Part shown: in pieces, positions 33,511-60,427 of the stretch
How positions within the stretch are numbered: position 1 is the stretch's first letter
Layout: each line of letters opens with the position of its first letter
Origin: Caulobacter sp.
GTDB lineage: Bacteria > Pseudomonadota > Alphaproteobacteria > Caulobacterales > Caulobacteraceae
DNA: 64,000 nucleotides
Direction of reading: 5' to 3'
NCBI GenBank assembly: GCA_030680355.1
Contig: JAUXVF010000029.1
Coordinates: forward strand, 124,001-188,000
The notes under the pieces: model-generated
Databases searched by the model: none
What the model was told of the DNA's origin: nothing
The model's input: only the letters and a program-made list of their open reading frames with translations
Position numbers and translations under genes: made by a program

Positions 33511-34611
33511 ATGGCCCTTAAAGTCGCGATCGTCGGCCTGCCCAACGTAGGCAAGTCGACCCTGTTCAACGCCCTGACCCAGACGGCGTCGGCCCAGGCG
33601 GCCAACTACCCGTTCTGCACCATCGAGCCGAACACCGGCGACGTGGCCGTGCCCGAGCCGCGGCTCGAGGTGCTCGCGGGCATCGTGGGCAGCAAGGAAA
33701 TCATCCCCTCGCGGATCAACTTCGTCGATATCGCCGGCCTGGTCCGCGGCGCCAGCAAGGGCGAGGGTCTGGGCAACCAGTTCCTGGCCAACATCCGCGA
33801 CTGTGACGCGGTGGCCTTCGTCGCCCGCTGTTTCGAAGACAGCGACATCACCCATGTCGAAGGCCGCATCGACCCGCTGTCGGACCTCGACATCATCGAG
33901 ACCGAACTGATGCTGGCCGACCTCGAAAGCCTCGAGAAGCGCCTGCCCAACGTCGAAAAGAAGGCCAAGTCCGGCGGCGACAAGGAGGCGGCCAACACCC
34001 TGCGGCTGATCAGGATCGCGCTGGAACAGCTGAGCGCCGGCCGCCCGGCCCGGGCCGCCAAGATCAGCCCCGACGACGAACGGGCCTGGCACATGCTGCA
34101 GCTGCTGACCGCCCTGCCGGCCCTCTATGTCTGCAACGTCGACGAGGGTTCGGCCGACAAGGGCAACGCCTTCTCCGACCAGGTCGCCGAGCGGGCCAAG
34201 GCCGACAACGCCAAGTCGGTGGTCATCTCCGCCCAGATCGAGAGCGAGATCGCCCTGCTCGATCCGGCCGAGCGCAACGAGTTCCTCGAAACCCTGGGTC
34301 TGACCGAACCGGGCCTCAACCGCCTGATCCGCGAGGCCTACGCCCTGCTCGGTCTGCAGAGCTATTTCACGGTCGGTCCCAAGGAAGCCCGCGCCTGGAC
34401 CATCGAGATCGGCATGACCGCGCCCCAGGCTGCCGGCGTCATCCACAACGACTTCGAGAAGGGCTTCATTCGCGCCGAGACCATCGCCTATGACGACTTT
34501 GTCCGCCTGAACGGCGAACAGGCCGCCAAAGACGCCGGCAAGATGCGCGCCGAAGGCAAGGAGTACGTCGTCAAGGACGGCGACGTGATGCACTTCCGGT
34601 TCAACGTCTGA
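33511..34611 (+). CDS. ychF: Redox-regulated ribosome-binding ATPase YchF
   Basis: This 366-residue Obg-family P-loop protein has G1 GLPNVGKST, a switch region DIAGLVRGASKGEGLGNQFL and the NVDE replacing NKxD, as expected for the ATP-preferring YchF. A C-terminal TGS domain follows (SYFTVGPKEARAWTI to KDGDVMHFRFNV). YchF binds ribosomes and affects the stress response. It normally follows pth; here the two are separated by a toxin-antitoxin pair. Confidence 0.96.
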   Translation: MALKVAIVGLPNVGKSTLFNALTQTASAQAANYPFCTIEPNTGDVAVPEPRLEVLAGIVGSKEIIPSRINFVDIAGLVRGASKGEGLGNQFLANIRDCDAVAFVARCFEDSDITHVEGRIDPLSDLDIIETELMLADLESLEKRLPNVEKKAKSGGDKEAANTLRLIRIALEQLSAGRPARAAKISPDDERAWHMLQLLTALPALYVCNVDEGSADKGNAFSDQVAERAKADNAKSVVISAQIESEIALLDPAERNEFLETLGLTEPGLNRLIREAYALLGLQSYFTVGPKEARAWTIEIGMTAPQAAGVIHNDFEKGFIRAETIAYDDFVRLNGEQAAKDAGKMRAEGKEYVVKDGDVMHFRFNV

Positions 34612-35199: not shown

Positions 35200-35874
35200 A
35201 TGCATCGCTCAAGCGCCAAAATTCTCGCCCTCACCCTGGCCGCCGGCGTTCTGGCCGCCCCCGCGGCCGTGTCCGCCCAGCCCTACGGCGGCGGCGGCTA
35301 CTACGGTGGCTCGAACAACAACGGCTATAACAACGGCTACAATGGCGGCGGCGGCGGCTACGGCGGCGGCAGCTACAATGGCGGCGGCTACAATGGCGGC
35401 GGCTACGGCGGCGCCCAGTACAGCGGCGTCGGCTACAACGGCTACAACAACGCCGGCTATGGCAGCGGCTATGCCGACAGCCAGTACCTGAGCCAGTGCC
35501 AGGTGAAGAAGCGTCAGGGCCAGAAGTCCGGCGCGGCCATCGGCGCCATCGCCGGCGCGGCCCTTGGATCGAACATCAGCGGCAACGGCGCCCGCACCGA
35601 AGGCGCCGCGTTCGGCGCCATCGCCGGCGCTCTCCTCGGCGCCCAGGTCGGCCGCTCCCAGGCCAAACAGTCGGACGTCTGCCAGCAGTACGGCTTCTAC
35701 GATGGCCGGGACCAGTACCGGACCTACGGCCAGGCCTACTACTACAACGACGGCTTCTACGATCAGCGCGGCCAGTGGCGCGCCTACGACCGTCGCCAGG
35801 ACCGGAGCTACTACCAGAGCCAGTACGGCCAGGGCGCGTCGTACAACCAGTCCAACTACGGTCGCCGCCGCTAG
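35200..35874 (+). CDS. Secreted Gly/Tyr/Asn-rich glycine-zipper protein
   Basis: A signal peptide (ALTLAAGVLAAPAAVSA) is followed by about 65 residues of Gly-Tyr-Asn repeats such as GGGYNGGGYGG, then a glycine-zipper double helix (SGAAIGAIAGAALGSNISG and GAAFGAIAGALLGAQVG). A Tyr/Gln/Arg-rich tail follows. The zipper segments suggest insertion or oligomerisation in the outer membrane, as in 17-kDa surface-antigen and YMGG-like proteins. The low-complexity parts may be adhesive or scaffold-like. Two Cys are far apart. The function is unknown; AGGAGC before ATG 35200 supports the start. Confidence 0.82.
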   Translation: MHRSSAKILALTLAAGVLAAPAAVSAQPYGGGGYYGGSNNNGYNNGYNGGGGGYGGGSYNGGGYNGGGYGGAQYSGVGYNGYNNAGYGSGYADSQYLSQCQVKKRQGQKSGAAIGAIAGAALGSNISGNGARTEGAAFGAIAGALLGAQVGRSQAKQSDVCQQYGFYDGRDQYRTYGQAYYYNDGFYDQRGQWRAYDRRQDRSYYQSQYGQGASYNQSNYGRRR

Positions 35875-58893: not shown

Positions 58894-59033
58894 CTTGCTG
58901 CTCTCCTGATGAACGCCGCCATCATCGGCCGTTCAGCCCCGCGCCGCAATTCCGCCAGTGGGTTGCGGCATCTTGACCCTCTGAGAAAGCGCGCGTTTAA
59001 GTCCGCGCCAGGAAACTGCCAGGAGATCGAACG

Positions 59034-60368
59034 ATGAAAATGATGAGGATCGGCCTGGCGGCCGCTCTTGCGCTGGTCGTCATGGCCCCCGCGTCGATGG
59101 CTTACGCCGCCAAAAAGCCGGCCGCCGGCGGCATTGACGCCAAGGCCCGCACAAAAGGCATGGCCGAAGCCCCCGCCCTGGCGGTCTCGGCGGGTCTGAC
59201 CTGCACCGTGACCGACGCCCGATTCATCGGGGCGGACAAGAAGAGCGGTCAGGACTTCTACGAAATCGCCTGCGAGCCGGGCATTGGCGGCGTGCTCGCG
59301 GCCAAGAAGGAAGAGGCCAAGCCGGCCTTTTTCAACTGCCTTGAAACCGGCCGCCCGACGGAAGACGGCAAGCCCAGTTCGCTGGCCTGCATCCTGCCCG
59401 GCAACGCCGACCCCGTTCAGTCGCTCGCCACGTTCGTCGCCAAGTCCGGCACGGCCTGCGTGATCGACAAGGCCCGCGCCATCGGCGCCAGCCCCACCAA
59501 CACCTTCTTCGAAGTCGCCTGCAAGGACGGCTCGGGCTTCATCCTCATGACCTCCGCCCCGGCCAACGCCGACCAGGACGTCAAGGCCAATACCTGCCTG
59601 GCCTACGAGCCCGGCGGCACCCTGTTCTGTGAACTGACCAGCCGCGACGCCCAGCTGGCTGTCGTCGACCGGCTCAACGCCGCGGCCAACAAGGGCTGCA
59701 AGATCACCGACCGCCGCTATGTGCTCTCGGCGACCACCGGCTCGACCTACTACGAAGTTGCCTGCGAGAACGGCAAGGGCTACCTGCTTGAGCAAGGCGC
59801 CGACGGCGCCCTTGCCCGTGCGATCGACTGCGTCAACGCGGTCGGCGGCGGCGAATGCACCCTGACCGACGCCCGTGAAGCCAAGACGGAACAGGCCGGC
59901 CTCTACAGCCGCCTGGCCACCAAGGCGGGCTTCCCCTGCAAGGTCGAGAAGTACGCCCTGTTCCCGACCCGCAACGCCGGCGAGGAAGTGGTCGAGCTGA
60001 AATGTTCCGACCGTCCGGACGGCGCTGTCGCCATCTTTGACGCCAACGGCGGCGGCAAGGCGTTCAGCTGCATCGTCTCCGACCTGCAGGGCTATGGTTG
60101 CTCGTTCACGCCCAAGTCGGCTTCGGTCGGCAAGCTGAGCGCTGACCTCAAGTCGTTCGGCAAGGGCTCCTGCGTGGTGTCCGACGCCCGTGTCATCGGC
60201 AAGACCGGCAGCGGTGACGGCTTCATCGAAGTCGCCTGCGCCGACGGTCTGCCCGGCTGGGTGATCAACTACGCCGACCGCTCCAACACGCCCAAGGAGC
60301 TGCTCAGCTGCACCCAGGCGTCCGGCATCGGCGGCGGCTGCAAGCTGCCGACCAACCAGAAGAAATAG
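59034..60368 (+). CDS. Secreted five-repeat, 20-cysteine protein
   Basis: The 444-residue protein has a signal peptide (residues 1-25). The rest contains five repeats of about 80 residues, each with four Cys: 57/80/102/119, 142/163/188/199, 222/244/266/275, 302/324/346/356 and 380/402/426/436. These are all 20 Cys in the chain. Repeats share C-x-V-x-D-A-R...FxEVAC...G. The pattern suggests two disulfides per unit, formed in the periplasm or outside the cell. I recognise no named family. ATG 59034 has AGGAG upstream, and a strong terminator follows, so it is a monocistronic unit. A structural or binding role seems more likely than catalysis. Confidence 0.88.
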   Translation: MKMMRIGLAAALALVVMAPASMAYAAKKPAAGGIDAKARTKGMAEAPALAVSAGLTCTVTDARFIGADKKSGQDFYEIACEPGIGGVLAAKKEEAKPAFFNCLETGRPTEDGKPSSLACILPGNADPVQSLATFVAKSGTACVIDKARAIGASPTNTFFEVACKDGSGFILMTSAPANADQDVKANTCLAYEPGGTLFCELTSRDAQLAVVDRLNAAANKGCKITDRRYVLSATTGSTYYEVACENGKGYLLEQGADGALARAIDCVNAVGGGECTLTDAREAKTEQAGLYSRLATKAGFPCKVEKYALFPTRNAGEEVVELKCSDRPDGAVAIFDANGGGKAFSCIVSDLQGYGCSFTPKSASVGKLSADLKSFGKGSCVVSDARVIGKTGSGDGFIEVACADGLPGWVINYADRSNTPKELLSCTQASGIGGGCKLPTNQKK

Positions 60369-60394: not shown

Positions 60395-60427
60395 AGGCCC
60401 GCCGGAGCGATCCGGCGGGCCTTTTTC
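60395..60427 (+). terminator. Rho-independent terminator of the cysteine-repeat gene
   Basis: AGGCCCGCCGGA and TCCGGCGGGCCT form a perfect 12-bp stem with loop GCGA, followed by TTTTT. It lies 27 bases after the stop codon. Confidence 0.93.

Follow-up and report, generated by a model that had tools for sequence, protein, structure and literature searches.

We analyzed a 64,000-nucleotide stretch of Caulobacter sp. DNA (the window; positions 124,001 to 188,000 of the forward strand of contig JAUXVF010000029.1, assembly GCA_030680355.1) and found that the ATG-started open reading frame (ORF) at 59034-60368 (+) encodes a 444-residue protein, P0001, that consists of five homologous four-cysteine units behind a predicted signal peptide. 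The gene was delimited from the ORF call, the cysteine spacing, the alignment and the distribution of its family, which is real, undescribed and lineage-wide. By analogy with known domains, we tentatively favor a role for P0001 as a multi-domain periplasmic binder with BLIP/PepSY-like domains, perhaps an inhibitor or regulator.

An earlier reading of the window from its letters alone (the sequence-only reading) had placed all 20 cysteines in five repeats of about 80 residues with the spacing C-x(20-22)-C-x(21-24)-C-x(8-16)-C, and our analysis bore this out. The gaps within units 1 to 5 were 22-21-16, 20-24-10, 21-21-8, 21-21-9 and 21-23-9 residues, and those between units were 22, 22, 26 and 23. 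Cysteine spacing, alignment and the unit profile delimited unit 1 (residues 37-123, 59142-59402; C57, C80, C102, C119 and E77), unit 2 (residues 121-203, 59394-59642; C142, C163, C188, C199 and E160) and unit 5 (residues 359-441, 60108-60356; C380, C402, C426, C436 and E399), all on the + strand. Unit 3 (residues 201-281, 59634-59876, +; C222, C244, C266, C275 and E241) was delimited in the same way and was also modelled singly, and unit 4 (residues 282-361, 59877-60116, +; C302, C324, C346, C356 and E321) had the lowest unit-profile score of the five. The two motifs that every repeat had been said to share were over-stated. C-x-V-x-D-A-R is exact in units 1 and 5 only, its counterparts being CVIDKAR in unit 2, CKITDRR in unit 3 and CKVEKYA in unit 4, and F-x-E-V-A-C is exact in units 2 and 5 only, the other three units having FYEIAC, YYEVAC and VVELKC. 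The core common to all five is C..E-x-x-C..G..C..C.

Pairwise identity among the window units was 19-30% in an alignment of 160 units. We scored each unit with hidden Markov models built from the four other unit positions of 32 sequences, P0001 included, and units 1 to 5 obtained 39.4, 45.2, 54.5, 25.2 and 49.4 bits, respectively. When the units were shuffled, 282-297 of 300 shuffles per unit received a score, with a maximum of 13.2 bits, and when the cysteines were held in place 293-298 of 300 did so, with a maximum of 13.6 bits. Since the real units scored far above both sets, the five units are homologous beyond mere cysteine spacing. The 20 cysteines and five glutamates were invariant across the 32 aligned sequences (P0001 and 31 others), and only one acidic residue per unit was. 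In a larger set of 354 units the glutamate was present in all 354, C1 in 353, C2 in 354, C3 in 353 and C4 in 332; the C4 of 21 further units lay beyond the unit cut and was in every case confirmed downstream by spacing, while the remaining unit is a partial one, split by an insertion, in the relative at locus L035.

Of the relatives fetched beyond the 32 proteins of alignment A1, 3 had a single unit, 4 had two units, 23 had three (L035 and its partial unit included), 1 had four and 22 had five. These counts were made after removal of 13 duplicate loci (L060-L071 and L073), the 20 loci of the unit-profile scan of the class (L040-L059) and unit matches that did not exceed 10 bits; no family member came from L105. 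Position-specific profiles assigned the units of the 22 further five-unit proteins to their own positions in 21 cases for unit 1, 14 for unit 2, 21 for unit 3, 21 for unit 4 and 12 for unit 5. Because the positions are recognised in this way, we infer that the five-unit order is ancestral and that the shorter forms are paralogues or losses, with units 2 and 5 supporting this less clearly. The four-unit form (L106, 531-2261 (-), genome G688) matched positions 2 to 5 best and seems to have lost unit 1.

The sequence-only reading knew of no described family with this pattern, and searches of Pfam, NCBIfam and PDB sequences agreed in giving no significant match. Neither Pfam nor NCBIfam returned a family for P0001 at an E value of 10. 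A Pfam search of three orthologues gave nothing for two and only DUF7692 (E 0.12) for the third. Matches to PDB sequences were at chance level (best E 0.21 with the single sequence, 0.45 and 1.4 with profiles), and PHROGs gave one match (E 0.13) and nothing usable. Homologues occurred in 195 of 199 genomes and in all 22 genera of one bacterial family, f1, which we take to be Caulobacteraceae; among its good-quality genomes 181 of 182 had one, the sole miss being G777, an assembly in 590 contigs. Restriction to Caulobacterales had been raised as a question, and the answer is narrower than the order. In a scan of the order 61 of 299 genomes matched, all of them in f1, and no homologue was found in the sister families. 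Scans of the class and the phylum gave 5 of 385 genomes (four in f1 and G621) and 11 of 398 (all in f1), so the family is near-limited to f1 rather than order-wide. The name given to f1 rests on the closest records that carry a taxon name, those of a Caulobacteraceae and a Caulobacterales bacterium with 71% and 69% identity. With a three-unit relative as the query, all 61 sampled genomes of genus g2, presumably Brevundimonas, matched.

The source genome had one match at E 0.001, and a six-frame scan of the window with the 354-unit profile (frames of at least 40 codons) found no second member, the next best frame having an E value of 0.33. The unit profile gave eight weak matches outside f1 at E values up to 0.1 (best 0.006) in 289 genomes of the class. 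The eight comprise L047, L048 and L050 as well as the five checked, L043-L046 and L049, which had no frame above 100 residues with E-x-x-C and three cysteines. G621, which belongs to another alphaproteobacterial family, carries the divergent relative L035 (182-1264, +), with a glycine-rich insertion in its first unit. Its contig is 11 kb long and the relative was not found in the other four genomes of that family; it may reflect contamination or rare transfer. A scan of viral contigs, plasmids and phages found no relative, and the idea of a mobile element was dropped. In the literature we found no recognisable report on the Caulobacter homologue, in a search made without the C. crescentus locus tag; in the portions available, PMC12864828 concerns a different secreted protein, YjbI, and PMC2241609 lists proteins shared with sister families.

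The units are predicted to share one compact fold, which the sequence-only reading had named as an outcome that would support it. AlphaFold gave a predicted local distance difference test (pLDDT) score of 62 and a predicted template modelling (pTM) score of 0.37 for the full protein with three alignment rows, and 77 and 0.65 for unit 3 alone with 15 unit rows. The predicted order of elements was a long helix followed by four strands (H-E-E-E-E), both for unit 3 on its own and for every unit of the full protein. That reading had also proposed a solenoid or a bead chain. Proteins with one, two, three, four and five units occur, and the units look more like separate alpha+beta domains, the beads, than like a solenoid. 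In the full model strand 1 begins one or two residues after C1, strand 2 ends at or close to C2, and C3 immediately follows strand 4; from these positions C1-C2 and C3-C4 would be the natural disulfide pairing. Joint loss of cysteines was looked for as a guide to the pairing, and none of the 354 units has lost a pair. According to the portion of PMC8900818 available, ScsC is a periplasmic disulfide isomerase of Caulobacter crescentus, which makes it plausible that one protein could form as many as ten disulfides there.

Two comparisons, both weak and short of significance, point towards the BLIP/PepSY-like fold. Of the 50 rows in the list of PDB matches to the unit model, nine passed a cut of at least 60 columns and a root-mean-square deviation (rmsd) of at most 5 that was chosen afterwards, and eight of these (six entries) were Bacteroides periplasmic proteins, BLIP-like, DUF2874, UipA or Rv0603; the ninth, 2m7o, was not placed. 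We take 4hbr, 3elg and Rv0603 to be PepSY-like. We also aligned the 354-unit profile with a PepSY profile built from 21 of 25 fetched loci, four being left out, and the two were in register across strands 1 to 3, the YEV strand among them, with a score of 14.7; of 200 column-shuffled PepSY profiles one did as well, and of 88 unrelated blocks none. At the level of sequence this only suggests kinship; the unit fold is probably a variant of the known BLIP/PepSY-like fold, an assignment that we treat as a lead.

A multi-site envelope binder is tentatively favored because there are five units with one invariant glutamate each and no histidine, and a binding role would follow from analogy with the BLIP/PepSY superfamily. 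P0001 would then be a soluble protein of ~43 kDa when mature, probably made constantly, with five homologous domains and a periplasmic rather than extracellular location. Each domain would pack one long helix on a four-stranded antiparallel sheet and carry two disulfides, of which one would probably bridge the first hairpin (C1-C2) and the other lie behind strand 4 (C3-C4), and would probably be a BLIP/PepSY-like domain in a new form stapled by disulfides. The sheets, each with its invariant glutamate on strand 2, could make several contacts with one or more envelope partners, and hydrolases or peptidases, sensor domains and assembly factors are candidates for what P0001 would inhibit or regulate. 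That P0001 is, more specifically, a lineage-defining envelope component, a five-headed disulfide-locked binder that originated in a Caulobacteraceae ancestor and persists in nearly all of its descendants, and that its five sheets and their glutamates would bind or block some envelope machine of these bacteria that is essential or conserved, we consider rather unlikely.

Several observations weigh against this binder with BLIP/PepSY-like domains. The single-unit model had no significant PDB fold match (best E 0.043), the eight favored rows had template modelling (TM) scores of only 0.38-0.51 by query, and about 15-19 of the 50 listed unit matches are what we take to be beta-propeller fragments, most of them of 28-60 columns and matching the sheet. 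The full model had a pTM of 0.37, which makes its arrangement of units unreliable; the short helix that BLIP-like units have ahead of the next unit reaches at least four residues only behind strand 4 of units 4 and 5, and the corresponding stretches of units 1-3 (103-128, 189-198 and 268-286) are below a pLDDT of 50. The PepSY score of 14.7 barely exceeds that of the best unrelated block (14.0), with an hhalign probability of 2.1%, and the 160-unit profile reached a probability of 0.7%. Comparison with a BamE profile (20 loci) gave nothing, and the method likewise failed to join PepSY and BamE, which are related according to the literature and belong to the same BLIP-like superfamily in the part of PMC2954215 available. 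To these are added the absence of a Pfam family at an E value of 10, searches for expression, localisation or phenotype data that found none, a gene context with no conserved partner and with neighboring genes on the other strand, and paralogue neighbors that are mostly housekeeping or hydrolase genes.

The lack of significance of the unit fold matches would also be expected of a new fold unrelated to BLIP/PepSY, an alternative that we take together with a five-bladed beta-propeller and regard as rather unlikely. The full model had 202 PDB matches at E values up to 0.001, and the listed top 50 are mostly what we take to be beta-propellers. The listed matches, however, had TM scores of 0.11-0.16 by query and rmsd values of 15-19 Å, and they may reflect repeated four-stranded meanders only, although this mismatch counts for less with a unit arrangement as unreliable as that of the full model. 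Proteins with one, two, three and four units and a long helix in every unit are unsuited to a closed ring, and a five-bladed propeller is disfavored. A scan of a viral fold library gave no match at E 0.001 and no other useful hint.

The better-aligned fold matches include UipA (7ath, 63 columns, rmsd 3.3), a PepSY protein associated with uranium and iron, and the part of PMC12714742 available connects PepSY domains with the binding of metals. P0001 could accordingly be a ligand- or metal-binding protein of the same kind, which the invariant acidic residue of each unit would suit. This seems to us quite improbable, since that residue is the only invariant acidic one per unit, the mature protein has no histidine and the protein has no CxxC.

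The gene carries its own predicted signals, which bear on another alternative. A sigma-70-type promoter-like pair, TTGACC (58973-58978) and TTTAAG (58996-59001), both on the + strand and conserved by eye, precedes the gene, and a TTGACC-like box separated by 17 or 18 bases from a TTA[A/T/G] box was found upstream in 30 of the 32 sequences, 32-52 bases 5' of the start. A likely ribosome binding site, AGGAG, lies at 59021-59025 (+). The N-terminus (residues 1-25, 59034-59108, +) fits by pattern a Sec-type signal peptide with cleavage at about AYA-AK, the same pattern is present in the inspected orthologue N-termini, and the protein is thus predicted to be secreted, in line with the sequence-only reading. 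That reading had also called the gene solitary with a strong terminator, and both points held. The two flanking genes are on the opposite strand, and an intrinsic terminator with a 10-bp GC stem, a 6-base loop and a T-run lies at 60396-60426 (+), a GC-rich hairpin and T-run being seen by eye 3' of the gene in 31 of the 32 sequences. The codon usage of the gene ranked sixth among the 64 predicted genes of the window (0.737 against a median of 0.649). The reference for this index was nine genes named from their sequences, eight for ribosomal proteins and one for EF-Tu, and since eight of the nine scored below P0001 it favors good expression weakly; three of the nine were below the window median.

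The main rival of the binder reading builds on these features. P0001 would be an abundant, oxidation-resistant bead chain serving as filler, spacer or stiffener of the periplasm or as a surface coat, a structural or protective envelope protein with no specific partner. The conserved promoter-like pair and terminator, the codon usage rank, the occurrence of one or more homologues in 195 of the 199 family genomes and the variable number of units are all consistent with it. On the other hand, the codon index is weak for the reason given, and a glutamate kept in 354 of 354 units, together with the position identity that units 1, 3 and 4 each keep in 21 of the 22 five-unit proteins beyond A1, suggests more than a spacer. 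We consider this alternative somewhat unlikely.

Gene context was considered as a guide to function and was not informative across the compared loci. In 18 loci of 9-13 kb, a putative metallo-beta-lactamase-fold gene lay upstream in 15 and a putative thiamine-diphosphate-enzyme gene downstream in 12; both point the other way and were therefore not read as partners. Several relatives have neighbors of their own. The three-unit relatives of genus g2 at L123, L124, L126 and L127, single or paired, adjoin a gene of one cluster in all four viewed loci, and at L123 that gene matches exonuclease III. A gene near one two-unit paralogue has a weak aspartyl-protease family match below the cut-off. At L120, 5922-8136 (-), in genome G007, a single-unit relative overlaps by 4 bases the first of two genes that match DUF3298 at or just below the cut-off, the first also matching PdaC just below its own cut-off, an arrangement that may be an operon. 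At L116-L119, in related genomes, no predicted gene separates a two-unit relative from ychF upstream of it in three loci, and in the fourth it is found 2 kb further downstream. In the window itself, a YchF-type GTPase gene, labelled from its sequence (33511-34611), is followed directly by one for a secreted-looking 224-residue Gly/Tyr-rich protein with a glycine-zipper-like stretch (35200-35874, +).

Caulobacter is a model of bacterial cell biology, yet a gene family of all 22 sampled genera lies outside the Pfam and NCBIfam models, and a gene so widespread in the family, with so exact a code of cysteines, hints at an envelope role that has gone unrecognised. The known systems closest to P0001 are those of the BLIP-like superfamily (BLIP, PepSY, DUF2874, BamE and DUF3192), whose common theme in the part of PMC2954215 available is binding, often thought to be inhibitory. 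BamE (SmpA_OmlA, PF04355), a member of it according to the same text, was present in 24 of 26 related genomes, whereas profile comparison with the P0001 units found nothing. PepSY proteins (PF03413; DbfQ and UipA) are small secreted domains whose profile is in register with unit strands 1-3, though with a weak profile score and no Pfam match, and the five PepSY sequences inspected, out of 21, lack such a cysteine pattern. DbfQ binds the sensor kinase DbfS with a Kd of 30 nM in the available part of PMC12714742, a tested precedent for partner binding by a PepSY protein. BLIP (beta-lactamase inhibitor protein, PF07467) is a secreted tandem repeat of a similar kind of unit, as the portion of PMC2954215 has it. 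P0001 has no sequence match to BLIP, which has two units. BLIP units contain disulfides. P0001 is likewise similar in its predicted tandem order of elements to DUF2874 (PepSY_like, PF11396), exemplified by BVU2987, which in PMC2954215, as far as its text is available, comprises tandem units of four antiparallel strands and a short helix-loop-long helix, in one to four copies and periplasmic. The listed fold matches of the unit include one chain of DUF2874 as well as a 'BLIP-like protein'. P0001 differs from DUF2874 in having no sequence match to it, four conserved cysteines and ~80 residues per unit, up to five units and another bacterial lineage. If the fold reading is true, the BLIP/PepSY superfamily gains a form with four cysteines per unit and up to five units.
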